Translations under genes and position numbers: made by a program
The notes under the pieces: model-generated
Told to the model about the DNA's origin: nothing
Databases searched by the model: none
The model's input: the letters and a program-made list of their open reading frames with translations, nothing else
Shown here: positions 1-11,554 of the stretch, one piece after another
Layout of the letters: the number at the start of each line of letters is the position of its first letter
Numbering within the stretch: the first letter of the stretch is position 1
Origin: Acidobacteriaceae bacterium
GTDB taxonomy: Bacteria; Acidobacteriota; Terriglobia; Terriglobales; Acidobacteriaceae
Direction of reading: 5' to 3'
DNA length: 11,554 nucleotides
NCBI GenBank assembly: GCA_003135495.1
Contig: PLBX01000289.1
Location: 1-11,554, forward strand

Positions 1-61
1 AAACCGTCCCTTTTCCATCCTTAAGGCCACCCTTCCACACCGCACTAGCTTTCCTTTGCAT
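1..61 (-). CDS. osmC: OsmC-family peroxiredoxin, N-terminal fragment (cut by window edge)
   Basis: The minus strand from the ATG at 61-59 reads MQRKASAVWKGGLKDGKGTV and then runs off the left edge. This matches the remembered start of E. coli-type OsmC (a W-x-G, then a K-x-GKGTV stretch before the STESG segment). OsmC/Ohr proteins are cytoplasmic thiol peroxidases that reduce organic hydroperoxides with a pair of cysteines; those residues lie outside the window. A good Shine-Dalgarno, AGGAGA, sits at 72-67, five bases before the ATG, which supports the start. The gene lies downstream of the zinc-ribbon gene on the same strand, with a gap of about 144 bases. Only 20 codons are visible, so the OsmC assignment (as opposed to Ohr) rests on the GKGTV motif and spacing. 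Confidence 0.72.
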   Translation of the reverse strand, partial: MQRKASAVWKGGLKDGKGTV

Positions 62-205
62 TGCAATCTCCTAATTTGAAAATCGAAATGGGTCAGAAAC
101 TATTGTAGAAGAGGATGCGAACTCATGGTTAGGGGAGCACCGGATATAGCAGGGATCGCGAGGGAGTTGGGAAATTGAGGGTGCAGTATTAATAGAAAGC
201 CGCCT

Positions 206-454
206 TTAATAAAAATCGGAGCAGCTCAAATAAAATCCGCATTTCTTGCAAATTACTTTGCAGCGATGTCCGCGCAATTCGCTCGAACAGTTAGGGCAAA
301 TTGACGACACATCTTTTTTCTTCGCCGACGGCAGCAGATTAGCAACAGCAAGATTGCCGCCGCCGATATTAGGACTAGAGGTTGGGGTTTCTACGACACC
401 AGTGAGATTCAATGCATGCGACATGCTTCCAAATAAATTTGGATTCAAAGGCAT
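206..454 (-). CDS. Small cysteine-rich zinc-ribbon protein
   Basis: An 82-residue protein. The first 50 residues are low in complexity (Ser, Pro, Gly, Asn) and look disordered. The C-terminus is a compact metal-binding module: C53-x2-C56, then C65, C69-x2-C72 and C78, ending SCSDFY. Two CxxC knuckles about 12 residues apart are typical of zinc ribbons that bind nucleic acid or protein, but the function is unknown. The module resembles short uncharacterised proteins I associate with Acidobacteriota, by memory only. The start is uncertain: the ATG at 454 has no clear Shine-Dalgarno, while an in-frame ATG at 424 (Met11) is preceded by TTTGGAAG and would give 72 residues. The cysteine module is the same either way. 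It lies divergent from tRNA-Cys and upstream of osmC on the same strand. No hairpin terminator was seen after its stop. Confidence 0.7.
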   Translation of the reverse strand: MPLNPNLFGSMSHALNLTGVVETPTSSPNIGGGNLAVANLLPSAKKKDVSSICPNCSSELRGHRCKVICKKCGFYLSCSDFY

Positions 455-590
455 GCTCGGTGTTGTAGCACAAATCGGCGGTCAAGAAAATCTGTTCCGC
501 GGCAAGCCAGTGTTATACGAGATTCCGATTCGTTCGGAATGCCGGCCGCCTAGACAATTCCGCTTCCCACGTTCTACTGTGGATCAACAA

Positions 591-665
591 GGCGCGGTAC
601 CCAAGTGGTAAGGGAGAGGTCTGCAAAACCTTTATACGTCGGTTCGATTCCGACCCGCGCCTCCA
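591..665 (+). tRNA. tRNA-Cys (anticodon GCA)
   Basis: A complete cloverleaf can be drawn. The acceptor stem 591-597 pairs with 655-661 in seven perfect pairs (GGCGCGG with CCGCGCC). The D stem is 600-602 with 612-614. The anticodon stem is 616-620 with 628-632, around a seven-base loop with U33 at 622 and anticodon GCA at 623-625. The T stem is 638-642 with 650-654, around TTCGATT. The discriminator is U (662), a cysteine identity element, and CCA is encoded at 663-665. The gene stands alone, with no tRNA neighbours, promoter or T-tract terminator that I could identify. Confidence 0.97.
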
Positions 666-977
666 ACCTCCATCGATGCGCGACGTCTGTGCGCGAGCGA
701 AAGAGAAGCTCCGTGGCGCTGGAACGCTACCTTCTGTATCAACTATCGTCTCTGGAGTGGATTTCATTAGCTGGTGGAGGGTCAGCAAACTGTGTTTAGG
801 GCAGCGCCCATACGGGTAGATGACGAGCGTTCTTTTAAATAAAAAGTGGACCTCGTGTCGGGCGGAAGATGAGGCGTAAACAAAGGCGCTCGTGAATTTT
901 TGCTATCGTAATTGCAGAAAGGAACAAGGCGGGTTGTGAGCCGCGATGGTTGACCACAGAGATGCCACACCCACTAC
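666..977. other. Intergenic stretch without a recognisable gene
   Basis: About 312 bases between tRNA-Cys and the permease. Short ORFs here (for example minus 782-970) have no recognisable motif or ribosome binding site. There is an AT-rich patch around 829-846, a 4-bp hairpin at 799-809 and a 7-bp inverted repeat (823-829 with 887-893), none stronger than chance. The permease promoter is presumably here, but no convincing -35/-10 pair was found. Confidence 0.5.
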
Positions 978-2351
978 ATGACTCTTTCTACACCGGCGGG
1001 TCCCGCTAACACTCAGAAGCCTGGGCTGGCGCGCCAACTGGGGCTATTCGACGTCACCATGCTGGTCATGGGAGGGATTGTTGGTTCTGGGATATTTATA
1101 AATCCTTACGTTGTGGCGCAGCAGGTTCATACTCCGGCGTTGATTCTGGGAGCATGGGTCTTCGGTGGAATTGTTGGCATAGGCGGCGCCTTTATCTGGG
1201 CTGAACTGGCGGCGACCCTGCCGGCAGTCGGTGGGCAATATGCTTATTTGCGCGAGGCGTATCACCCGGCCGTCGCATTTCTGTATGGATGGGTGCTGCT
1301 GCTGGTGATACAGACCGGAGGTATGGCGGCAGTTTCGATAACTTTCGCGCGCTATTTTCTGGAACTCTCCGGCCTACGAGCGCCAGATTGGACGGTCGCG
1401 ACATGTGCGCTCGCCGCGCTAACCCTGATTAATTGTCTTGGCGTAAAAACTGGCGGGCGGACGCAGAGCGCGCTTATGGTCATGAAGATAATCGCTATCG
1501 CCGCCTTGGTGATTGCCGGGGTCGTCTTTGCCGGGCAGCACGGGACTATCCGGCACGAGACTATGAGGAACGCAGCGGCACGGAGTTGGTCGCTGACGTC
1601 GTTTGGCGGGGCGATGGTACCGGTTCTTTTCGCGTATGGGGGTTGGCAGACCGCGAACTTTATTGCCTCAGAAGTAAAGGAGCCCAAAAAGAACTTGCCT
1701 CGTGGACTACTGCTCGGTGTTTTCGGAGTAGCAGTGCTCTACATCGGCGTTAACTGGGTATGCCTTCGTGCGCTGGGGCCGGAAGGATTAGCCGCAACCA
1801 CGACGCCCGCCACCGCTGTAATGCGGATGGCACTCGGGCAGCGCGGCGCTACGTTCATTGCGGCGGCGATTGCGATCTCGACTTTGGGCTTTTTAAGCCA
1901 GTCGATTTTGACTGCACCTCGCGTCTATTTTGCGATGGCTGGCGATGGCTTGTTTTTCCGTGCGGTGGCATGGCTCGACCCGCGCACGCGAGTTCCGGTG
2001 GTGGCCATTGTTTTGCAGAGTGTGTGGACTATAGTGATCGCGCTGACAGGGCGCTACGAACAGATTTTGAATTACGTTATCGCCATGGATTTTTTATTTT
2101 TTGGACTTACGGCGACCACAATCTTTGTATTTCGAAGACGGGCCGCGCGCGGCGATATGAATGCGAGCGATGGCTATCGTATTCCCGGGCACCCGGTAAG
2201 CACTGCGATATTCGTGGCTATATGCTGGTGGGTCGTTGCAAATACGGTGTACCGCTATCCTCAGAACAGCCTTATCGGTTTCGTTCTGCTGCTGGCGGGC
2301 GTTCCCGTGTACTGGTTCTGGGCCCGGCGATCGCGATCGGCCGATTCGTAA
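978..2351 (+). CDS. APC-superfamily amino acid permease (LAT/SteT-like exchanger)
   Basis: A 457-residue integral membrane protein with about 12 hydrophobic helices. Helix 1 has the amino-acid-binding unwound motif GSGIF (residues 36-40) of the APC fold. A second signature, EVKEPKKNLPRG (232-243), lies in the loop after the FAYGGW helix (218-223) and is typical of the LAT/SteT branch. The family takes up or exchanges neutral amino acids across the inner membrane; the substrate here cannot be told. The length fits the family (about 430-480). The ATG at 978 is the only usable start, because an in-frame TGA lies at 951-953 and the next Met (28) is inside helix 1. No strong Shine-Dalgarno precedes it. 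The aminotransferase follows after 54 bases, suggesting a two-gene unit for amino acid uptake and transamination. Confidence 0.93.
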   Translation: MTLSTPAGPANTQKPGLARQLGLFDVTMLVMGGIVGSGIFINPYVVAQQVHTPALILGAWVFGGIVGIGGAFIWAELAATLPAVGGQYAYLREAYHPAVAFLYGWVLLLVIQTGGMAAVSITFARYFLELSGLRAPDWTVATCALAALTLINCLGVKTGGRTQSALMVMKIIAIAALVIAGVVFAGQHGTIRHETMRNAAARSWSLTSFGGAMVPVLFAYGGWQTANFIASEVKEPKKNLPRGLLLGVFGVAVLYIGVNWVCLRALGPEGLAATTTPATAVMRMALGQRGATFIAAAIAISTLGFLSQSILTAPRVYFAMAGDGLFFRAVAWLDPRTRVPVVAIVLQSVWTIVIALTGRYEQILNYVIAMDFLFFGLTATTIFVFRRRAARGDMNASDGYRIPGHPVSTAIFVAICWWVVANTVYRYPQNSLIGFVLLLAGVPVYWFWARRSRSADS

Positions 2352-2405
2352 CGTGATTAGCTGCAAGATATTGAGAAACGCATCTTTCAATCAGGAGAGC
2401 TACAC

Positions 2406-3506
2406 ATGATTGCATCACGGCCGGAGGCCGTTTCGAGCTATCTGGCGTGGGCTAAATTGCGTTCGAACGCGCGTTTCAATTTAGCGGCGAGCGGAGTGAT
2501 GGATTATCCGCTGGCTGAGTTGCCGGTGCGTATCGAAGACATCGAGATTGGGGGGACGGGGCCTTATGGTTATCCGCCGCTGATGGAGCGCCTAGCGGCA
2601 AAAGCAGGCGTGGCGGAAGATTGTGTCGTCTATACCCTAGGTACATCGATGGCGAACTTCGTGGCGCAGACAGCGCTGGTGCGCCCGGGTGATGACGTAC
2701 TGATTGAGCGACCGACTTATGATCCGCTGTTGACTATTCTCGATCATATCGGCGCCAGGGTATCTCGCTTCGAACGTCTTGCGGAGAAGGGATTCAAGGT
2801 CGGCTTGGGAGAATTCGAGCGCAAGCTGACTCCGAAAACGCGTCTTGTAATTCTCTGCAATCTTCATAATCCAAGTTCCGCACTGACTGATGAGAACACG
2901 TTGGTTCAGATAGGTGAGATGGCGGCGAAAGTTGGAGCGAAAGTTCTAGTCGACGAGGTCTATCTCGAAACCTTATTCAATCAGTCGTGGCGTTCTGCGT
3001 TTCATCTGGGGGAGAACTTCATTGTGACCAGCAGCCTGACCAAAGCCTATGGTCTGAGCGGGATCCGCTGCGGATGGATTCTTGCGCAACCGGAGCTCGT
3101 GCAGCGCATGTGGCAGATTGTCGATTTCACGTACGGCAGTCCGGTGCATCCGGCCGAGATGCTTGCGGTAGTTGCTCTCGACAATCTGGATCGTGTGCGA
3201 GATCGCGCCCGCGTGTTACTCGAAAGCAATCGCTCTCTGGTGAATGAATTTCTCGCGAAGCATACGAGCCTCGTTTGTGAGCCGAGCCGGTACGGCACGA
3301 CGGTTTTTCCGCGGCTTCGAATGGGCGATGCCGGAAAATTTGTGGGGATGTTGCGTGACAAGTTCGAGACCAGCGTGGTGCCGGGAGATTTTTTTGAGCA
3401 ACCACAGCATTTTCGAATCGGACTCGGCGGAGCTACAGAGATGGTGCGCGGCGGACTGGGGCGGCTTAGCGACGCGTTGGATGCATTCCAGCGAACCTCA
3501 AGTTAG
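2406..3506 (+). CDS. PLP-dependent class I/II aminotransferase
   Basis: A 366-residue fold-type I aminotransferase, cytosolic. Visible landmarks: cofactor-binding N152-x2-NP (155-156), a variant of the NxxNPTG motif; D183-x2-Y186, which contact the pyridine nitrogen and phenol oxygen; the Schiff-base lysine K213 in SSLTKAYGLSGIRCGW; and the substrate-carboxylate arginine R337 in FRIGLGG. These make it catalytically competent. It moves an amino group between an amino acid and a 2-oxo acid, but the amino acid specificity is not readable from sequence. It is slightly short for the family (usually 380-400), mainly at the N-terminus. The start at 2406 is well supported by AGGAGAG at 2393-2399. It probably shares a transcript with the upstream permease, so its substrate may be the imported amino acid; that link is inference. 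Confidence 0.92.
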   Translation: MIASRPEAVSSYLAWAKLRSNARFNLAASGVMDYPLAELPVRIEDIEIGGTGPYGYPPLMERLAAKAGVAEDCVVYTLGTSMANFVAQTALVRPGDDVLIERPTYDPLLTILDHIGARVSRFERLAEKGFKVGLGEFERKLTPKTRLVILCNLHNPSSALTDENTLVQIGEMAAKVGAKVLVDEVYLETLFNQSWRSAFHLGENFIVTSSLTKAYGLSGIRCGWILAQPELVQRMWQIVDFTYGSPVHPAEMLAVVALDNLDRVRDRARVLLESNRSLVNEFLAKHTSLVCEPSRYGTTVFPRLRMGDAGKFVGMLRDKFETSVVPGDFFEQPQHFRIGLGGATEMVRGGLGRLSDALDAFQRTSS

Positions 3507-3516
3507 ATCGCGAAAG

Positions 3517-3536
3517 TCGTGACAAGACTCGTGACA
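3517..3536. repeat. Short tandem repeat upstream of folP
   Basis: TCGTGACA occurs twice (3517-3524 and 3529-3536), twelve bases apart, between the aminotransferase stop and folP. The second copy contains GTGACA, a possible -35-like hexamer, but no matching -10 stands 17 bases downstream. It may be a regulator half-site pair or chance. Confidence 0.35.
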
Positions 3537-3571
3537 TGGATTGTTACTCCACTGGAAACTCGGGCTCGTTC

Positions 3572-3577
3572 TAGAAT
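3572..3577 (+). promoter_or_regulatory. Candidate -10 element of folP
   Basis: TAGAAT (five of six consensus) lies nine bases before the folP ATG. A start site six to eight bases downstream would fall at or next to the ATG, implying a leaderless or nearly leaderless mRNA. This fits the lack of a Shine-Dalgarno. The -35 region about 17 bases upstream is weak. The hexamer and its placement recur before hemB. Confidence 0.5.
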
Positions 3578-3586
3578 AGCGGGCAT

Positions 3587-4555
3587 ATGCGGGCGGTCTT
3601 TCAGTGGAGGTTAGGATCACGTATGCTCGAGTTAGGGCGTCGCACCCTAATCATGGGCATCGTCAATGTAACTCCCGATTCGTTTTCGGATGGCGGGCTG
3701 TTTGTCGACGCCGAAAAGGCTGTTACACACGCCATGCAGTTGCTGGATGATGGCGCCTCCATAGTTGATATCGGCGGAGAATCGACGCGCCCCGGAACGT
3801 TAGTCTCGTCGCCGAGTGATATGCCTCAGGTCGATTCAACGAGGCGCGATGCTGCGCCGCAAGCGGAAACTGCAGCGATGAAGCCGGTATCCGAAGAAGA
3901 AGAGCGGCGCCGGGTGCTTCCGGTGATACGCGATCTGAAGCGCCGCCGCCCCCAAGCAATCATCAGCATCGACACTTACAAGGCCAGTGTCGCTCGGGCC
4001 GCAGTGGAGGCGGGAGCGGAGGTGGTAAATGATGTCAGCGGTTTTCGCTGGGATCCCAAGATGGCGAAAACACTGGCGGAATTAAATGTAGGAGCTGTGC
4101 TCATGCATAGCCGCGGCCGTCCGGAGGATTGGAAATCGCTGCCGCCGATCGGTGATCCCGTGCTGATGGTCAAGCGTGAGTTGCGCCAGTGGGCCGAAAC
4201 GGCGACCCTCGCTGGCGTCAAGCGGGATCGACTGGTGCTGGATCCAGGTTTTGGATTTGGAAAGCGTTTCGAAGAAAATTATCCGCTGCTTGCACATTTC
4301 GGCGAACTGCAACAGATGGGATTCCCCCTGCTAGTTGGGGTTTCGCGTAAGGCGTTTATTGGGCGAATGCTGGCCAGAGATTCGAATAGTAACGAGAAGA
4401 GCAAAGATGCGGAAGTTTCAGAGCGTCTCAATGGCACCTTAGCCGCCGAAACTGCCTTGATTCTTAAAGGAGCACATATTATTCGGACGCACGACGTGCG
4501 CTGCGCTGTGGATATGGCCCGCGTGGCGGACGCAATCGTGTCCAGCGGTGGGTAG
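3587..4555 (+). CDS. folP: Dihydropteroate synthase
   Basis: A 322-residue TIM-barrel enzyme of folate synthesis; it joins p-aminobenzoate to hydroxymethyl-dihydropterin pyrophosphate and is the sulfonamide target. All motifs are present: loop 1 NVTPDSFSDGG (27-37), DIGGESTRPG (61-70), SIDT (127-130), NDVSG (148-152), DPGFGFGK (219-226), SRK (253-255) and the terminal RTHD (300-303). It is longer than the usual 270-285 residues because of a Ser/Pro/Glu/Ala-rich insertion at about 71-100, between STRPG and the VSEEEE helix. The start at 3587 is chosen because the FQWRLG segment before the core looks like family N-termini. An internal ATG at 3623 (Met13) has GGAGG at 3606-3610, 12 bases away, and would also leave a complete core. 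It is convergent with the sensor kinase gene, with 93 bases between stops. Confidence 0.96.
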   Translation: MRAVFQWRLGSRMLELGRRTLIMGIVNVTPDSFSDGGLFVDAEKAVTHAMQLLDDGASIVDIGGESTRPGTLVSSPSDMPQVDSTRRDAAPQAETAAMKPVSEEEERRRVLPVIRDLKRRRPQAIISIDTYKASVARAAVEAGAEVVNDVSGFRWDPKMAKTLAELNVGAVLMHSRGRPEDWKSLPPIGDPVLMVKRELRQWAETATLAGVKRDRLVLDPGFGFGKRFEENYPLLAHFGELQQMGFPLLVGVSRKAFIGRMLARDSNSNEKSKDAEVSERLNGTLAAETALILKGAHIIRTHDVRCAVDMARVADAIVSSGG

Positions 4556-4648
4556 GACCGATTGGCGCGAAGTTAGTTAGGATTGTTCTACCGATTAATC
4601 ACTAATGACCTAACGATCTAATGACCCATGGCGCGGCATAGAGAAGGC

Positions 4649-6397
4649 TTAGGCGCCAGCGGCTCCCGCTATGGCGTTATTCGTCTGGAAGACAGGGAGC
4701 CGGATTTCGAATGCTGCTCCGCCCTCCGGCCTGTTGTAGCAGGAGATTTGGCCTTTGTGATCCTGAATCACACCGTACGTAGCGCTGAGTCCAAGACCTG
4801 TGCCTTTGCCTACGGGCTTGGTCGTGTAAAAAGGATCGAAGACGCGCTCGGGATCACGCATGCCAGGTCCGGTGTCCGCGAACTGCACGATCACCTCACC
4901 GGCTTCGCTCCAAAGAGAAACCTGGAGACGCCCAGATCCCATTTCCTGCAAGGCATCGACCGCGTTTTCTACGATCTGAAGAAAGGCCTGGAGAAGTTGA
5001 TTGGCATTGCCGAGAACAGTCGGCACCGGGTCTGTAGCTTCCACGGAAAGGGTGATACTTTTGTTCTGCAGTTTGAACCCTTCCATTTGCACTGCGCGCT
5101 GCAAGAGAGACTTCAAATCCAAAGGATTTTTTTCGCCTGGAGTTTGTTGAGAGAAGCTGAGCAGATCGATGATCAGTTCTCGCGTGCGCCGCGCTTGCTG
5201 GCCAATCTTTTGGGCGGTGGAAAGTTGTTCGCGGGTGAGATTGTGGCTGGCCGCCATTTGTTCAGATTCGCTCAAGATCGACGAGAGTGGGAATTCGAGT
5301 TCGCCGGCTGCGAGTGCGACCAGTTCGCCGAGCGAAGCCAGTTTCGCTTGCTGGATTACTCTTCCTTGCAGTCTTTGTAAGTTATCGAAACTCTTGCGCG
5401 AGTGCCTGAGTAAATGCAGCAATCGCTGATCCAGCAAATATTGCTTGAGAAATATGAGAAAGGCCAGAACGGCAATGCCAACGATAGCCACGGCAAATCG
5501 GACGCGGCGTAAGTAAGGATCGTCCTGGGACAGGAACAGCGCCCAGTAAGCCATAACGGGTAACGAGAGCAAAGCGATTTGCGTCAGCAGCGGAGCCACT
5601 GAGTGCTTTGAACGTTGCAGGGCTGGCATCATGGGAATGCCGCGGAGACGATACCGCCCGGCAATCGCGACCCAGAGAAATCCCATCGTGGCGATGAGGA
5701 ATGGAAGGTCGTAAATGCCACCGGTCTTATAGGCGCCTCGAGCAATGGCAGAATTCATCGCCTCCGAAGACAGGGTGTAGAGAGTGGAGGCGATCAAAAT
5801 GTCGCGATAGAGTTCGCGCCATAATCCGGTAGAGGTGAAATATGCGGACGCCGATACCGCAATTAATATCGCTCCTTCCACCAGATACAGGAAGTCCCAT
5901 CGCGGGCTGTAAACCCCAACGTTTACGGCAAGATATTCCTCGGGGAAGACGAAAAAAGCGTAAACCACGAGCCACCACACCAACAATATGAAGACGTTGA
6001 GTGCGCTGGGCAACATTCCTTCGCGCTCGTCCGCCTGATGGGGCCGAATGGCTACCGACGCCGTGATTGGGACAACATGCATGAAGAGCACGATATCCCC
6101 TTGAAATGGCTCCGGAACGGGCCGGCGAACCAAGACCTCAAAATAGACCCAGCAGGCCTGGTTAAAGCACCACATGGCCAGGCCTGCCGTCATAAGGCTC
6201 CAAAACAAGCGCTTATGGCCCCGGCTATTGAGAGCATTCTTTGCGGAGATGATAAAGGCAGCCGTGATTATGAAAAATGGAACTAAGTCACCAACGGCAG
6301 AGCGGAAATGAGGATTGGGGTACAGGATGGGAGCCAGCGCAAAGCACACCAGCAGTCCAACTCCAAAGCGGAGCGCCGAGATTTGCAACTTAGACAC
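4649..6397 (-). CDS. Membrane sensor histidine-kinase-like protein lacking the H-box histidine
   Basis: A 582-residue protein. Residues 1-320 hold about ten hydrophobic helices (near 8-26, 34-51, 64-90, 102-118, 131-150, 168-188, 199-217, 229-246, 268-290 and 300-320), a membrane sensor region I cannot assign to a named family. A coiled stretch (322-355) leads to a HisKA-like helix, LASLGELVALAAGELEFPL, where the expected AHELNNPL is changed: the phospho-accepting His is Gly365 and the following Asn is Phe. The HATPase_c domain looks intact: N box with N477, G1 DTGPG (508-512), F box FDPFYTTKP (520-528) and G2 GTGLGLS (532-538). No response regulator is adjacent. The GTG start is favoured because an in-frame TGA lies four codons upstream and the next Met would remove two helices; the ribosome site is weak. 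It could be a pseudokinase, an ATP-dependent partner of another kinase or a phosphatase. Confidence 0.9.
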   Translation of the reverse strand: MSKLQISALRFGVGLLVCFALAPILYPNPHFRSAVGDLVPFFIITAAFIISAKNALNSRGHKRLFWSLMTAGLAMWCFNQACWVYFEVLVRRPVPEPFQGDIVLFMHVVPITASVAIRPHQADEREGMLPSALNVFILLVWWLVVYAFFVFPEEYLAVNVGVYSPRWDFLYLVEGAILIAVSASAYFTSTGLWRELYRDILIASTLYTLSSEAMNSAIARGAYKTGGIYDLPFLIATMGFLWVAIAGRYRLRGIPMMPALQRSKHSVAPLLTQIALLSLPVMAYWALFLSQDDPYLRRVRFAVAIVGIAVLAFLIFLKQYLLDQRLLHLLRHSRKSFDNLQRLQGRVIQQAKLASLGELVALAAGELEFPLSSILSESEQMAASHNLTREQLSTAQKIGQQARRTRELIIDLLSFSQQTPGEKNPLDLKSLLQRAVQMEGFKLQNKSITLSVEATDPVPTVLGNANQLLQAFLQIVENAVDALQEMGSGRLQVSLWSEAGEVIVQFADTGPGMRDPERVFDPFYTTKPVGKGTGLGLSATYGVIQDHKGQISCYNRPEGGAAFEIRLPVFQTNNAIAGAAGA

Positions 6398-6445
6398 TTC
6401 TTTGAATCATATGATGTTCGCGCTCAGAAGTTTAGATCACGGTCT

Positions 6446-6471
6446 GGTTACCTCCGGTTACTGTAGTAACC
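6446..6471. promoter_or_regulatory. Operator-like triple GGTTAC repeat between sensor kinase and hemB
   Basis: GGTTAC at 6446-6451 and 6456-6461, and its complement GTAACC at 6466-6471, start exactly ten bases apart, one helical turn. The last two form a perfect inverted repeat, GGTTACT-GT-AGTAACC (6456-6471). A further GTTACA at 6572-6577 overlaps the proposed hemB -35. The layout suggests a dimeric or oligomeric regulator binding one DNA face in this divergent control region. The regulator is unknown. Confidence 0.5.
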
Positions 6472-6571
6472 TTGCGACTAACAGCACATTATTCGAAGGC
6501 TAGTTCATCCAAGGCAGGGCGAAAGACTTCGGATGTGATGGTGGTCACGATAAGGAGTGACGGATTGAACA

Positions 6572-6600
6572 GTTACAGGTACTGCGGCAACTGCTAGAAT
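6572..6600 (+). promoter_or_regulatory. Candidate hemB promoter
   Basis: GTTACA (6572-6577, four of six to TTGACA) is followed after 17 bases by TAGAAT (6595-6600). The -10 ends only eight bases before the hemB ATG, and no Shine-Dalgarno lies between, so the transcript may be leaderless, as proposed for folP. Confidence 0.5.
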
Positions 6601-6608
6601 GGCGTGTT

Positions 6609-7628
6609 ATGGCATTTCCCGCCAACCGTTTGCGTCGTTTACGGCGCACTGAAGGCCTGCGAACGCTGGTTCGCGAAACCAGGCTTTCGCCGGAGTCCTT
6701 CGTTTATCCGCTTTTTATATGCCCCGGGAACGGAGTCAGAAAAGCAATAGGCTCGATGCCTGGCGTGTTCAACCTTTCGGTAGATGAGGCTGTAAAGGAA
6801 GCCCGTGCGACTCGATCCCTCGGAGTGTTGTCGATCATTCTCTTCGGACTGCCGGAGAAGAAGGATGAGGTGGCGACGGGCGCGTGGGCAGAGGACGGTA
6901 TCGTGCAGCGCGCAGCACGCGCGATTAAGAGTGAAGTGCCTGATTTGCTGGTGATGGGTGACGTCTGCCTCTGCGAATACATGTCGCACGGGCATTGCGG
7001 CATTGTGAAAGCGGAGCGGCGATCGCTGGGAGCGGCTGCGGCTCCGCCGGCGATCAGTGAGTACGAGATCATAAATGACGCTAGTTTAGAACTGCTTGCT
7101 CGGACGTCGGTTTCGCTGGCGCGATCAGGAGTCGATATCATCGCTCCCTCAGACATGATGGATGGCCGGGTGGGCGCGATCCGCAGTGCGCTAGATCAGG
7201 CTGGTTTTGAGAATACCCCTATTCTTTCCTATGCAGCCAAGTTCTCTTCGGGCTTCTACGGCCCTTTCCGGGAGGCAGCAGATTCGGCGCCGCAATTTGG
7301 AGATCGCCGTTCCTATCAAATGGATCCGGGGAACATTCGCGAAGCGATGCGGGAGATTGAGTTAGATATAGAAGAGGGCGCGGACATGATCATGGTGAAA
7401 CCCGCCATGCCATATCTCGATGTAATTGCTGCCGCACGCGACCGGTTCGACCTGCCTTTGGCGGCCTATCAAGTCTCCGGAGAGTACGCAATGATTGAAG
7501 CGGCCGCTCGCAACCAGTGGATTGACCGGGAGCGGGTAATGATGGAGTCGTTGCTCTCTATTCGCCGCGCCGGAGCGAGCATTATCTTGACTTATTACGC
7601 GAAGGAAGCCGCGAAGCTTCTGGCATAG
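6609..7628 (+). CDS. hemB: Delta-aminolevulinic acid dehydratase (porphobilinogen synthase)
   Basis: A 339-residue cytosolic enzyme that condenses two 5-aminolevulinate molecules into porphobilinogen, the first common step to heme and other tetrapyrroles. Both Schiff-base lysines are visible: K211 in [15 protein letters not shown] and K264 in [10 protein letters not shown]. The metal site has three cysteines, C120, C122 and C130 ([13 protein letters not shown]), so it is the zinc-dependent type rather than the Mg-only Asp-rich type. [14 protein letters not shown] (179-192) is the family signature. A loop of about 15 extra residues (Ala/Pro-rich, around 132-158) follows the third cysteine, before the LELL helix. 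The ATG at 6609 gives the standard N-terminus. It is divergent from the sensor kinase, and the sigma-factor gene starts 82 bases after its stop. No clear terminator was found, so read-through is possible. Confidence 0.97.
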
Positions 7629-7655
7629 CTTTAACACTGGCAAATCCCACAAATC

Positions 7656-7687
7656 TTGATCTTATTCCACCAATAGTATTGTAAAAT
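7656..7687 (+). promoter_or_regulatory. Tentative promoter region of the sigma factor operon
   Basis: TAAAAT (7682-7687) resembles a -10, and TTGATC (7656-7661) a -35, but the 20-base spacer is too long for a standard sigma-70 promoter. The 82-base gap after hemB is AT-richer than its surroundings. If the sigma factor drives its own operon, its target motif would be in this gap; I cannot derive that motif from one copy. Confidence 0.3.
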
Positions 7688-7710
7688 CCCACCCGACTTG
7701 GAGTAACACT

Positions 7711-8385
7711 GTGTTGAGCTACTTGCGATACCCGTCGGAAGAACTGGTGAAAGCCTGCGCTTCCTCAAAGGACGAGAACGCCTGGTTGGAGTTCGTCCGA
7801 CGTTTTCGCGCGGTGATTGCCGGGGCTGTATTGAGAACCGCTCAGGGTTGGGGCGAGTTATCCCGGTCACAAATAGACGACCTCATCCAGGATACTTACC
7901 TCAAGCTTTGCGAAAACGATTGCCAATTGCTGCGTTCATTCCAGCCCCGGCAGGAAGATTCTATTTTCGGATTTCTGAAAGTGGTAGCGGCGAATGTTGT
8001 GCACGATCATTTCAAGTCGGCGTTGGCCGCCAAGCGTGGTGCTGCCAAGACCGTCGCAGACCCCATCAATCTAGAGTCAACTTTGGCCAGCGACGATGGC
8101 TTCCGAGGACTGGCCCATCGTCTTCAGCTGCAGCAGATCGACGATGTTCTGAGACGGGTGACGGCAGGTGAGGATCAGGAAAGAAAATGCGCGATTTTTT
8201 GGCTTCGTCACCGGCAAGGTTTCACGGCGCGTGAGATTGCAGCTATCCCTTCCATTGAATTGACTACCGAAGGAGTGGAGAGCGTGCTTTTGCGTCTGAC
8301 AATTATGATTCGAAGTCACGTACTCGGTTCTGAGCCGCATCGCGAAGTGAAGGTTTTGAAGCGGCAAAATCGTTCTAGTAAGTAG
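7711..8385 (+). CDS. RNA polymerase sigma factor, sigma-70 family (ECF-like)
   Basis: A 224-residue sigma factor with only regions 2 and 4. Region 2 spans about 24-105: IDDLIQDTYLKLCEN (55-69) is the core-binding helix, and the FGFLKVVAANVVHDHFKS segment (86-103) corresponds to the -10 recognition and melting helices. A variable linker (106-135) follows. Region 4 spans about 138-205, with a helix-turn-helix around GFTAREIAAIPSIELTTEG (170-188) and VESVLLRL. The GTG start is supported by GGAG at 7700-7703, seven bases upstream; no ATG alternative keeps region 2 complete. The anti-sigma/CHAT gene begins 16 bases downstream with its own ribosome site, so the two are almost certainly one operon. 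Regulation by that partner is inferred from its zinc motifs. Divergence from classical RpoE makes the exact ECF group unclear. Confidence 0.9.
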   Translation: MLSYLRYPSEELVKACASSKDENAWLEFVRRFRAVIAGAVLRTAQGWGELSRSQIDDLIQDTYLKLCENDCQLLRSFQPRQEDSIFGFLKVVAANVVHDHFKSALAAKRGAAKTVADPINLESTLASDDGFRGLAHRLQLQQIDDVLRRVTAGEDQERKCAIFWLRHRQGFTAREIAAIPSIELTTEGVESVLLRLTIMIRSHVLGSEPHREVKVLKRQNRSSK

Positions 8386-8390
8386 GAAGT

Positions 8391-8404
8391 GGGGAGTTAC
8401 TTTG
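8391..8404 (+). promoter_or_regulatory. Ribosome binding site that sets the TTG start of the CHAT gene
   Basis: GGGGAG (8391-8396) stands five bases before TTG at 8402-8404. This is the best start in the open frame: it lies just before the first zinc motif, and the next in-frame ATG (Met41) falls inside that motif. A rare TTG codon after a strong site may lower output relative to the sigma factor. Confidence 0.7.
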
Positions 8405-11400
8405 GAAGAGAATCTCCAGGGCCATATTGGAGCGCAGGAACTGGGACGGCTGTTAGAGGAATCCCGGCAGGGCGCCCACTCGGAGGAGGCAGCGGAGACC
8501 CACCCACATCTTGCCGCGTGTATGAGTTGCCGCGAACAATTTCAAGAACTGGTTGTTATGGACCGCCGATTGAAAAGAATGCAGCCAACAAGTGTGCCCT
8601 TACGCGATGGCGGCTGCCCAGATTCATCGTTATGGCGTCGGATCGCCGGCGGTCTGATTCCTCCCGGCCAGACTTTGATCAACATCGAACATGCCAGCCG
8701 TTGTGATTTATGTGGCCCATTGCTTCACCGGGCTGTATCTGAATTGACCGGTCTCAGCATGGAGTGGTCCGAGGCGGAGCGAAAGGCCATCGCAAACCTC
8801 GAAAGTGCGAATCCGGAGTGGCAGCGCCGATTGGTGCAACGAATCACCGGGCTCTCAATTTCTAAATTGCAAAAGTTGAAATGGAGGTGGTTGTCCGTTC
8901 CGCAACTCTCCATAGCGGCTCTATCTGCGTTGGCAATAATTGTGGCGGGATCGTGGATTGTGAGTCATGTAGACCAGCCTGCCGCAGCGGACAAACTTCT
9001 TGCCCGTGCGTACACTGAAAAGCGCACGCTGGAACTCAGGATCCGGGGAGCGGATTATGCGCCTTTGCGCATCTCGCGTGGAGTGGAGGCTTCTTTCAGT
9101 AACCGCCCTCCTACACTCTTAAAGGCAGAAGCGATAATTTCCGCGCAGTTGCAGTCGCATCCTGCAGATCCGGCATGGCTACGGGCGAAAGCCCAGGCGG
9201 ATGTGCTTGAAGGGAAGTACGACGCGGCGGTGGAGTCGTTGCGCCGCGCTTTGGAGTTAGATTCGCATTCGCCTGCGCTATTGACCGACCTTGCCACAGC
9301 CTACTTTCAGCGAGCCGAGCAGGAAGACCGTAAGGACGATCTCGGAGCTGCCTACGAGTTGTTGAGCCAAGCGCTTAAGGTAAGTCCGAATGATGCGGTA
9401 GCGCTCTTTAACCGAGCCATCGTAGCGGATCATCAATTCCTTTATCACCAAGCGCTTGATGATTGGGAACATTACTTGCGCGAAGATCCCTCCTCGCAGT
9501 GGGCCGAAGAGGCGCGTAATCGCGCCAATGCTGTCCGGGAAATGCTGAAGCAACATGGCAGCAAAGCAAACCTGCTGCTTTCACCTGAGCGTTTGGCCGG
9601 GCTGGATGCAAATTCAAGTATTGTCCTTGAACTGGATGAGCGCATCGATGAATATTTGCACGAGGCAGTGCGCTCGTGGTTACCGCAGGCTTTTCCGGAA
9701 GCCGGAACGCCGAATCCTGACGCCTCGAAGGCGCTTTTTTTTTTGGCGCAACTCGCTCAGCAACGACATTCCGATCGCTGGTTAGTTGATGTACTTCGGG
9801 GCACCCAGTCACCGAATTTTCCACCCGCCGGAGGAGCGCTTGCGCGCGCTGTCAGGGCTAACGACGAAGGTGCTTATAACATTTCCCATCAGCAAGCCGA
9901 GCTTGCGGAACATTTATTCAGTAATGAAGGAAACGCGGCTGGCGTGCTTCGCGCGAGATTTGAATGGTCTTTCGGCGCGCAAATGGAACGGAACGGCGGG
10001 CGTTGCCGGGCGGAAGCCGCCGCAGCACTCGCCGAGGCAGAACGCTACTCATACCCTTGGTTGCAAATTCAATTGGGCCTCGAAAAGGGAGTTTGCTCCG
10101 CTCTGATGGGCGATGTGGGCGCCGACGAAAAGGCCTCGGCTGAAGCCATGGCGAAGGCGAAGCGGGCAAACTATGAAGCGCTTTATCTGCGAGCAGTGGG
10201 TTTTGGGATAGTCGGTAATCTTGAGACGGGCGATCAAACCCGCGCCTTAAATCTGGCTGGTGACGGGTTGCGTCGCTTTTGGTCCGGACACTCTCCGGCA
10301 ATGCGTGGTTATAACCTCTACGATGATTTGGCATTCGCTGCAGAGGCTGCGGGGCAACCGCATCTTCAGTTGGCGAATTGGCGCGAAGCCATTGGCTTGG
10401 TCGACGGCGACGAGGACCTGCTGCTGCGAGCGGAAGCACATAGCATGATGGCTAAAGCAGCGGTAGCGGCGGAACAGCCACAAATCGCGGGACAACAGTA
10501 TTCCGAAGCCTCTCGTCTTTATGCTGTGGCCCCGCAAACCGAAGCAACACGCACTCATCGCATCGAGATCGAAATTAGAACGGCTCAATTTGAGGCGCGT
10601 CGCAATTCGTTGGACGCAGCTTTGGCGAGGCTGATTCGGGTCCAGAGCGAGATACGGCGACTCTCGGATAATTATCTGGCGCAGATGTTTTACTCCACAT
10701 TGGGAGAAGTGGAACTCAGAAGCGACCATTACAGGGAGGCGGAACAGTCATTTCGACCAGCGATGGCGTTTGCGGACCAAAGCCTGGCTTCGATCCACTC
10801 GGAAGAAGAAAGAATCAACTGGAGCAGGAATACCGCTTCCGTGTATCTCGGGCTTGCGGAAGCCGAATTAATACAGGGTCGATCGCGCGATGCGCTCGAA
10901 ACATATCAGCGCTACCTAGGAGCCCCTGAACGGTTGGAAAGCGGGGTGCGTTCGAATCTATCCGCCGACGCTGCAAGCGGACGAGATCTGATCCAGCCGC
11001 ATGCGTCTTTGATCGAGTCCCGCATCCCGCTCATGACGAAAGAGACAGTGCTCACTTACGCCGTGCTGCCGGACGGCTTGGCGATCTGGATCTATGACGA
11101 TCGCGGCATCAATGCCAGCTGGACGAAGGAATCCACCGACGATTTGAAAGAGTTGGCGCAGCGCTTTCGCGATTTGGCATCGGATCCGACGTCGGAGTCG
11201 ATTGCGATGCAACGCGATGGTCGCAGTCTTTACGAAGCGCTGATCGCGCCGGTGGAAGCGCGGCTCGTGCCGGGCCGCTCGTTGGTTATTGAGGCTGAAG
11301 GATGGCTTGCTGCCGTACCCCTCGAAGCCCTGATTGATTCAAATCATCATTATTTGATTGAACGTGCGGCAGTGATTCATTCTCTCGGTCAAGAAGCAGA

Positions 11401-11554
11401 GGTGAGCCTGCACAGCGATAGCGGCGCTGTATCGGAACTGCCTGCGCTCGTGGTTGCCAGCACTGCTTCTTCTCGCGCTGATGGTCTAATTCCACTGCCG
11501 GATGTTGCCGCGGAAGCGAATATCGTAGGCAGAGATTTTCATGCCGCGCGAATT
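8402..11554 (+). CDS. Zinc-finger anti-sigma / TPR / CHAT protease fusion (3' end outside window)
   Basis: The frame is open from TTG 8402 to the window end (1051 codons) and continues beyond; I translated it throughout and found no stop. Residues 1-110 hold two HxxxCxxC motifs, H36-x3-C40-x2-C43 and H97-x3-C101-x2-C104, the hallmark of zinc anti-sigma (ZAS) domains. A single membrane helix (about 168-188) follows a basic WRW stretch, so the zinc part should face the cytoplasm and the rest the periplasm. TPR-like helices fill about 240-385 (clearest at 257-365), with a second helical-repeat region at about 480-850. From about 880 the sequence matches the start of a CHAT (caspase-like peptidase) domain: ETVLTYAVLPDGLAIW, then LVIEAEGWLAAVPLEAL (961-977) and YLIERAAVIHS. 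The catalytic HG and AC motifs would lie past the edge. A ten-T run at 9735-9744 encodes Leu-Phe-Phe-Leu. It follows the sigma gene by 16 bases. Confidence 0.9.
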   Translation, partial: MEENLQGHIGAQELGRLLEESRQGAHSEEAAETHPHLAACMSCREQFQELVVMDRRLKRMQPTSVPLRDGGCPDSSLWRRIAGGLIPPGQTLINIEHASRCDLCGPLLHRAVSELTGLSMEWSEAERKAIANLESANPEWQRRLVQRITGLSISKLQKLKWRWLSVPQLSIAALSALAIIVAGSWIVSHVDQPAAADKLLARAYTEKRTLELRIRGADYAPLRISRGVEASFSNRPPTLLKAEAIISAQLQSHPADPAWLRAKAQADVLEGKYDAAVESLRRALELDSHSPALLTDLATAYFQRAEQEDRKDDLGAAYELLSQALKVSPNDAVALFNRAIVADHQFLYHQALDDWEHYLREDPSSQWAEEARNRANAVREMLKQHGSKANLLLSPERLAGLDANSSIVLELDERIDEYLHEAVRSWLPQAFPEAGTPNPDASKALFFLAQLAQQRHSDRWLVDVLRGTQSPNFPPAGGALARAVRANDEGAYNISHQQAELAEHLFSNEGNAAGVLRARFEWSFGAQMERNGGRCRAEAAAALAEAERYSYPWLQIQLGLEKGVCSALMGDVGADEKASAEAMAKAKRANYEALYLRAVGFGIVGNLETGDQTRALNLAGDGLRRFWSGHSPAMRGYNLYDDLAFAAEAAGQPHLQLANWREAIGLVDGDEDLLLRAEAHSMMAKAAVAAEQPQIAGQQYSEASRLYAVAPQTEATRTHRIEIEIRTAQFEARRNSLDAALARLIRVQSEIRRLSDNYLAQMFYSTLGEVELRSDHYREAEQSFRPAMAFADQSLASIHSEEERINWSRNTASVYLGLAEAELIQGRSRDALETYQRYLGAPERLESGVRSNLSADAASGRDLIQPHASLIESRIPLMTKETVLTYAVLPDGLAIWIYDDRGINASWTKESTDDLKELAQRFRDLASDPTSESIAMQRDGRSLYEALIAPVEARLVPGRSLVIEAEGWLAAVPLEALIDSNHHYLIERAAVIHSLGQEAEVSLHSDSGAVSELPALVVASTASSRADGLIPLPDVAAEANIVGRDFHAARI
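9735..9744 (+). repeat. Homopolymer T10 inside the CHAT gene
   Basis: Ten consecutive T at about codon 445, between the two TPR-like regions. Losing one T gives TAG at 9783-9785 and gaining one gives TGA at 9787-9789, both within about 16 codons. Either product would keep the zinc motifs, membrane helix and first TPR region but lose the CHAT domain. Confidence 0.8.

Follow-up and report, generated by a model that had tools for sequence, protein, structure and literature searches.

How is a bacterial sigma factor controlled when the gene beside it appears to encode an anti-sigma factor and a protease in a single polypeptide? The question is raised by an 11,554-nucleotide stretch of DNA (the window) from an Acidobacteriaceae bacterium (assembly GCA_003135495.1), which comprises bases 1 to 11554 of the 12568-base contig PLBX01000289.1 (C273); 1014 contig bases lie beyond it. 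Here a gene for an extracytoplasmic function (ECF)-type sigma factor (7711..8385; 224 residues, GTG start) is followed, after a 16-base intergenic gap (8386..8401), by a gene with a TTG start (8402..11554, and onward, past the two Ns of an assembly gap, as far as about contig base 12023). These genes, and the parts of the second gene located below, lie on the forward strand. The second open reading frame (ORF) combines zinc motifs, a membrane helix, tetratricopeptide repeats (TPRs), and the beginning of a CHAT domain. The original prediction, made from the letters of the window, had described this arrangement, and the window bears out each part of it. We regard the chances as about even that the gene encodes a zinc anti-sigma factor that spans the membrane and has, as its sensor part in the periplasm, a TPR-CHAT cysteine protease with a built-in site-1-type role. 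The zinc protein probably holds back the sigma factor, and the architecture suggests an envelope alarm that carries its own protease.

The pairing of the two genes was judged among homologues found with the zinc-binding anti-sigma (ZAS)-TPR part as query, so the sample represents that part. From 8000 candidates scored, 432 homologues were obtained at E<=1e-3. A search of 397 genomes of the order gave a match in 111, the weakest covering the TPRs alone. The 89 hits at E<=2.5e-16 comprise 81 loci examined first (the window's included), 2 hits in loci already counted, and 6 loci fetched later. In all 81 loci, the anti-sigma part has a kin sigma gene as its same-strand neighbor, as would be expected if the genes were, as originally supposed, a conserved pair. 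No gene is called between the two in 79 of the 81, and a short ORF lies between them in L114 and L115. Three of the later loci have a kin sigma gene (L201, L203, and L206); of the others, L205 carries a fragment of one, and in L202 and L204 the contig ends. Pairwise distances among the sigma factors and among the anti-sigma parts are correlated (r 0.85).

The sigma factor is small and has regions 2 and 4, the features of an ECF sigma factor. It matches TIGR02937 (sigma70-ECF) over residues 51-201 at E 1.1e-7 and 31.6 bits, where the curated cut-off is 42.9, and Pfam Sigma70_r2 at E 9.7e-4, below cut-off. A profile of 22 relatives that spans the sigma factor plus the ZAS part (A4) aligns along sigma-E (1or7) at E 0.012. 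A structural model of the sigma factor joined to the ZAS part, built from L048 and 21 in-phase relatives read through their natural stops, is all-helical, with a mean pLDDT (predicted local distance difference test) of 79.7 and a pTM (predicted template modeling score) of 0.66; the artificial joint lies in a disordered stretch, residues 212-235. Autoregulation by the sigma factor was considered and set aside: no clear ECF promoter is found upstream in 16 near relatives, most of which share a TGTAAAAT-like block and a GGAG-type site.

The anti-sigma region contains two Hx3Cx2C motifs, H36-C40-C43 and H97-C101-C104, the second preceded by C72. The first zinc finger spans residues 8-43 (H8...H36xxxC40xxC43; 8423..8530), and the second residues 72-104 (C72...H97xxxC101xxC104; 8615..8713). 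C72, H97, C101, and C104 are each kept in all 81 loci, and this conservation of zinc ligands is more than chance. Before the helix, Hx3Cx2C occurs twice in 46 of the 81 loci and once in 35. Where the first finger was aligned, in a chosen subset of 32 rows (A6), the equivalents of H8 and of both cysteines are invariant and that of the second histidine is nearly so. The most frequent Pfam match in these rows is zf-HC2 (21 of 32 at E up to 1, best E 1.6e-7); in the first row, L048, a near relative of the window protein, it falls below cut-off. A profile search of the PDB with the ZAS part finds the anti-sigma chains RsiW, 3hug_B (which we take to be RslA), and DdvA at E 0.047-0.087, ranked below two collagen matches (E 0.006 and 0.045). 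Hx3Cx2C is a mark of the zinc-binding class I anti-sigma domains (PMC7406223). The family has both this signature and, in 81 of 81 loci, an adjacent ECF sigma gene, the features of that class.

The part that lies beyond the helix consists of TPRs and a CHAT domain. Pfam TPR stretches fall between residues 249 and 837 (9146..10912; PF00515, E 1.6e-9), and the first stretch of the CHAT domain occupies 11210..11554 (PF12770, E 1.5e-11, above cut-off). The window ends immediately 5' of a 2-N assembly gap ('NN'), downstream of which the CHAT domain resumes in a different frame (PF12770, 140.8 bits, E 1.1e-40). This continuation contains the motifs FHFAGHS and LSACGT, and thus the CHAT histidine and cysteine that had been sought past 11554. 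An intact copy, P0001, has the same CHAT motifs, runs unbroken for 1208 residues, and is 100% identical to the window ORF over all 1051 of its residues; therefore, the frame break at the window end looks like an assembly break. In P0001 numbering, the dyad is His1077 and Cys1120, both beyond the window. Histidine and cysteine are both kept in 73 of 73 aligned CHAT sequences, namely 72 cassette copies (the window's via P0001) and one extra CHAT in L076; ORFs of less than 780 residues, including L108 and L109, were left out. With its domain match and its His-Cys dyad, the protein is a predicted CHAT peptidase. Against the PDB, the CHAT profile matches 8rot (CHAT domain-containing protein; 3.9e-13), separase (1.6e-4), and 8d9g ('CHAT domain protein'; 2.9e-4), presumably Csx29.

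Between the zinc fingers and the TPRs lies a single predicted membrane helix (residues 169-187; 8906..8962; mean hydropathy 2.27). An automatic count finds a single helix in 74 of the 81 loci, two helices in 2, and no helix in 5. The median helix hydropathy in the family is 2.13, with 4 of 81 under 1.6, and lysine plus arginine are more abundant on the N-terminal side of the helix in 64 loci, equal in 9, and fewer in 8. These features are those of a predicted single-pass anti-sigma factor with a cytosolic anti-sigma domain. Loci in which CHAT is encoded by a separate gene speak to the location of the protease. In each of the seven split loci scored (L085, L077, L101, L154, L155, L156, and L158), a hydrophobic helix of its own stands at the N terminus of the separate CHAT protein (lowest hydropathy 1.54). 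This argues that CHAT lies outside in the split forms and, by homology, also in the fused ones, which supports the earlier suggestion that the protease lies across the membrane from the zinc part. After the helix comes a juxtamembrane motif, AYxxxRxxExRxxGA (residues 203-217; 9008..9052), in which R213 is kept in 80 and R208 in 79 of the 81 loci. The pattern as a whole follows the helix in 74 of the 81 loci, as it does in 15 of the 16 anchors taken from the rest of the phylum. An RxxExR-type pattern also follows the helix of the CHAT protein in 6 of the 7 split loci; the match in L156 may be due to chance, and L101 has none.

The three functions had been proposed to reside in one polypeptide, with the TPRs as sensor, CHAT as protease, and the zinc part as inhibitor. 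This is the case in 65 of the 81 loci by our tally and fails in the other 16. These comprise a separate CHAT gene with its own anchor in three (L085, L077, and L101), a gene broken between TPR and CHAT in four (L096, L114, L115, and L121), a stand-alone gene for ZAS, transmembrane helix, and TPRs (ZAS-TM-TPR) in two (L079 and L105, the latter with a CHAT ORF further on), a degenerate CHAT in two (L108 and L109), and a contig end in five. Fusion is thus common, not obligatory. On a tree of 89 CHAT domains, the fused/split label requires 9 changes, of which at least 4 are forced by starred branches; the zinc/no-zinc label on the same tree changes once. That the parts separate and rejoin argues that they act jointly. 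A run of nine T residues was seen at the TPR/CHAT junction in one clade of genus g11 (L114, L115, L121, L181, and L182). The frame changes there in three of these loci, and in the other two the run is read in frame; the g11 cassettes L183, L184, L185, and L187 lack the run. Programmed slippage at this run may allow a single gene to yield both the full protein and an anti-sigma factor that lacks CHAT.

The original prediction had also called for a search for conserved third neighbors, and this revealed a gene family that was invisible from the window alone. The next gene could be read in 74 loci that have CHAT, and in 60 of them the place directly 3' of the CHAT gene is taken by a member of a single divergent family. 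For the contig of the window, where the N gap threw off the gene caller, the gene was assigned manually; a short way beyond the window's end, C273:12054-12568 holds the start of a lipoprotein-like gene of this family. The family was built by iterated profile search from 18 starting members over 5790 ORFs (E<0.01). The profile collected 58 of 62 same-strand next genes and two missed by the caller (L100 and L118), and beyond these it matched a single fragment and five additional copies located farther down the same loci. In profile comparison, cluster 2 is related to cluster 4 (96%), L074 (98%), and cluster 49 (96%), and to cluster 6 at only 54%; several singletons are under 10%, and ten control neighbor families reach at most 1.4%. 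In the split loci L085 and L077, the third gene follows the CHAT gene on the other strand. The later loci L203 (two copies), L204, and L206 also have it. Fourteen of the 74 loci are without a match (L063, L065, L070, L071, L075, L078, L092, L099, L102, L105, L108, L109, L110, and L111). At the third-gene place in L065, L075, L063, L070, and L071, directly after CHAT on the opposite strand, stands a gene (cluster 18) that by eye is clostripain-like (clan CD); in L102, L110, L099, and L092, a long protein, glycosidase-like by eye, follows CHAT instead. On the other side of the window's cassette, a gene that by eye is hemB-like lies upstream of the sigma gene (6609-7628) and holds the same place in 13 loci, the window's included.

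What the third protein does is likely to be linked to the pair, as a co-regulator or a second substrate. An exported start (lipoprotein, Sec, or Tat-like) was recognized by eye in 40 of the 60 third proteins and in none of the other 20, which include L047 and all 14 members of cluster 6; a crude script agreed only partly with these calls. The best-kept residues, in an alignment of 59 rows, are C319 (59), G54 and H78 (58 each), P73 and P207 (57 each), and H228 (54). The family has 451 matches at E<=1e-3, and among the 120 matches listed the name given is 'hypothetical protein', bar one garbled entry. Eight members gave no Pfam or NCBIfam match above cut-off, and a sequence search of the PDB gave nothing better than E 0.79. 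A model of the L048 protein (59 rows) is largely beta (mean pLDDT 81.9, pTM 0.75), and Foldseek finds no PDB match for it at E<=0.001 (best E 0.15, probability 0.02; query TM-scores about 0.1). The modeled protein possibly represents a new fold, although the lack of a match does not prove this. Outside the order, in 20 loci from the rest of the phylum, the third-gene profile has no match and profile comparison reaches at most 4.9% probability; homology beyond the order is not claimed, despite an ORF of like length that follows in the 11 loci compared.

Together, these features can be assembled into a mechanism. At the membrane's inner face, the ECF sigma factor would be bound and retained by residues 1-110. 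A signal from the envelope (a protein, a peptide, or the third-gene product) would be read by the TPR superhelix together with the juxtamembrane segment, and this reading would switch the CHAT domain on. CHAT would then make a periplasmic site-1 cut, in cis or in a neighboring copy; in split loci, it would act in trans and cut the ZAS-TM-TPR partner. Cleavage may be completed by an RseP-like M50 protease, so that the sigma factor is released. The organism's own genome encodes an M50 site-2 protease (PF02163, 208 bits, G000:C77).

Several observations weigh against this mechanism. The window sigma factor scores under the curated family cut-offs, and the sigma-ZAS model of L048, which comes without an inter-domain error or coordinates, gives no readable contact, although it speaks neither for nor against the predicted contact of the sigma factor with residues 1-110. 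In genomes with several cassettes, the nearest foreign relative by sigma is also the nearest by anti-sigma in only 6 of 15 cassettes; each of the 6 that agree has a sampled relative that is at least 53% identical. The anti-sigma part occurs with a degenerate CHAT (L108 and L109) or with none found beside it (L079), in loci outside the 73 aligned. An RseP-like protease is found in almost any genome (14 of 14 controls have one), so the presence of an M50 protease says little. Most CHAT halves without an anti-sigma part retain the juxtamembrane motif too; consequently, it need not be a cleavage site. In most of the split systems scored, both halves carry the motif, which makes the block a candidate control or contact element and weakens the idea that it is merely a cleavage site; its ExR is a possible separase-type site. 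Finally, the sequences show the anatomy, its conservation, the pairing, and a predicted topology; from these we infer sigma binding, signaling through the TPRs, cleavage by CHAT, and the roles of the M50 protease and the third gene.

The third gene offers other ways to connect these parts. It is possible, if on balance unlikely, that the target of CHAT is a different envelope protein, above all the product of the third gene, and that sigma release is a separate, nonproteolytic conformational output of the TPR sensor. The third gene directly follows CHAT in 60 of 74 loci, the split loci L085 and L077 have it after CHAT on the other strand, two thirds of the third proteins (40 of 60) have an exported start by eye, and CHAT proteases with neighboring substrate genes are known in the cases of Csx30 and bacterial gasdermin (PMC10028731, PMC9729208). 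However, the 20 third proteins without an export signal by eye, all 14 of cluster 6 among them, would not share a compartment with CHAT, and 14 of 74 loci have no third gene. Another arrangement is seen at rpoE-rseA-rseB, where the gene order is sigma, membrane anti-sigma, and RseB. The order here of sigma, membrane anti-sigma, and often exported protein resembles it, and we see a small chance that the third product is an RseB-like gatekeeper that holds CHAT or the anti-sigma part off until a signal is bound, with outside proteases doing the cleaving and CHAT serving mainly as a scaffold. The conservation of G54, P73, H78, P207, H228, and C319 (59 rows) suggests a binding or metal site. Yet a scaffold would not need a His-Cys dyad, which all 73 sequences keep, and the model of the third protein has no confident PDB match, RseB included. 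It is very improbable that the helix does not cross the membrane or that the topology is inverted, with a cytosolic CHAT that acts like Csx29 on a cytosolic partner: the 20 of 60 third proteins without an export signal by eye and the 4 of 81 helices under 1.6 would fit, but the median hydropathy of 2.13, the greater positive charge inside in 64 of 81 loci, and the anchors retained by separate CHAT halves point the other way.

The reading of TPR-CHAT as a periplasmic sensor with a site-1-type role can be placed against what the same zinc region carries elsewhere. Fourteen lower search hits cover mainly the zinc and helix part, and six of these were fetched (L207-L212). All six have a kin sigma gene beside the same tandem zinc region and helix, and a different outer domain of about 170 residues with CMVCH and without TPR or CHAT; a Pfam scan of three of them found no family above cut-off. 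Since the same ZAS region elsewhere carries another outer domain, TPR-CHAT would occupy the periplasmic sensor slot. The genomes searched were those of the phylum Acidobacteriota, and the homologue names met were Terriglobales, Pyrinomonadaceae, Blastocatellia, and Acidobacteriota. In the rest of the phylum, a ZAS-TM-TPR profile matched 230 of 396 genomes, with many of the listed matches weak and within the TPRs. Of 20 phylum loci fetched, 15 have an upstream sigma-family match, some of them weak; the upstream ORF of L161 has none, and four were outside the scan. L163 has a zf-HC2 match above cut-off, and the database relatives P0257 and P0356 have zf-HC2 together with CHAT. Hx3Cx2C is absent before the helix in 9 of 16 phylum anchors, which by position are putative non-zinc anti-sigma domains. 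TPR-CHAT or TPR proteins whose N-terminal region has no zinc motif were noted at L160, L162, and L164-L170, and in the five of these scanned (L160, L162, L164, L167, and L170) a sigma-family match lies upstream of the gene. We would put at a little under even the chances of a broader view, a phylum-wide envelope alarm of the Acidobacteriota. Here a separase-like protease in the sensor slot would be the anti-sigma factor's own site-1 protease, the third protein, possibly a new fold, would be its signal partner or substrate, and the anti-sigma domains inside the membrane would be interchangeable.

If the proposed mechanism is true, TPR-CHAT proteases of the caspase/separase-like kind and ECF/anti-sigma signaling are joined in one membrane protein, a caspase-type protease has a regulatory role in the periplasm, and there is a first lead for the third-gene family, with its 451 matches and a model without PDB fold likeness. 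The predicted catalytic cysteine, the naturally split forms, and the conserved third gene provide handles for experiment. The open-access literature searched (CHAT/caspase-like or TPR with sigma/anti-sigma; in one case the 10 results listed of 1,476; subscription papers are mostly outside it) yielded type III-E papers and one review sentence on ECF54 with CHAT genes nearby, and showed no zinc anti-sigma/TPR-CHAT fusion, which does not prove that none has been described. A defense-system label was also tried and dropped: with PADLOC, neither gene of the window's pair nor either of two third-gene proteins had a match.

Among known systems, the CMVCH-type proteins L207-L212 share with the window protein the tandem zinc region, the helix, and the kin sigma factor, and differ in the outer domain. 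The class I (ASDI) membrane anti-sigma factors such as RsiW and RseA likewise have an N-terminal anti-sigma domain, with Hx3Cx2C in the zinc kind, a helix, and an adjacent ECF sigma gene (PMC7406223). However, RseA is cut by a separate protein, DegS (PMC10028731), whereas here CHAT is predicted to be the periplasmic domain itself. In ECF54, ECF sigma and CHAT genes occur in one context, as do subtilase and carboxypeptidase genes, but the review passage on this group treats it as acting without an anti-sigma factor and does not mention a fusion (PMC8999054). The TPR-CHAT protease associated with bacterial gasdermin also has a nearby substrate; there, the outcome is cell death in defense, and the passage on it does not mention a sigma factor (PMC9729208). 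The functional parallel that had been drawn is with the type III-E system Csx29-Csx30-CASP-sigma (Craspase), in which a TPR-CHAT protease controls an ECF-like sigma factor via an inhibitor (PMC10028731, PMC9729208). In that system, the protease is RNA-activated by Cas7-11, and the inhibitor, Csx30, is a protein of its own; here, a zinc anti-sigma domain would serve as inhibitor, mostly in one membrane protein with the protease. Membership in type III-E was tried and rejected, since the type III-E sigma model, NF041236, is absent among matches of the window sigma factor at E up to 1 and the protease and inhibitor are not separate (fused in 65 of 81 loci and membrane-anchored). NF041236 matches weakly in 4 of 10 relatives' sigma factors (L154, L158, L162, and L164; E 3.1e-6 to 0.0017, 18-27 bits, cut-off 100). 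The proposed link to type III-E thus stands as an analogy, a likeness in function and not in membership. If the mechanism is true, the type III-E logic, in which a protease frees a sigma factor, gains a counterpart that is independent of CRISPR.

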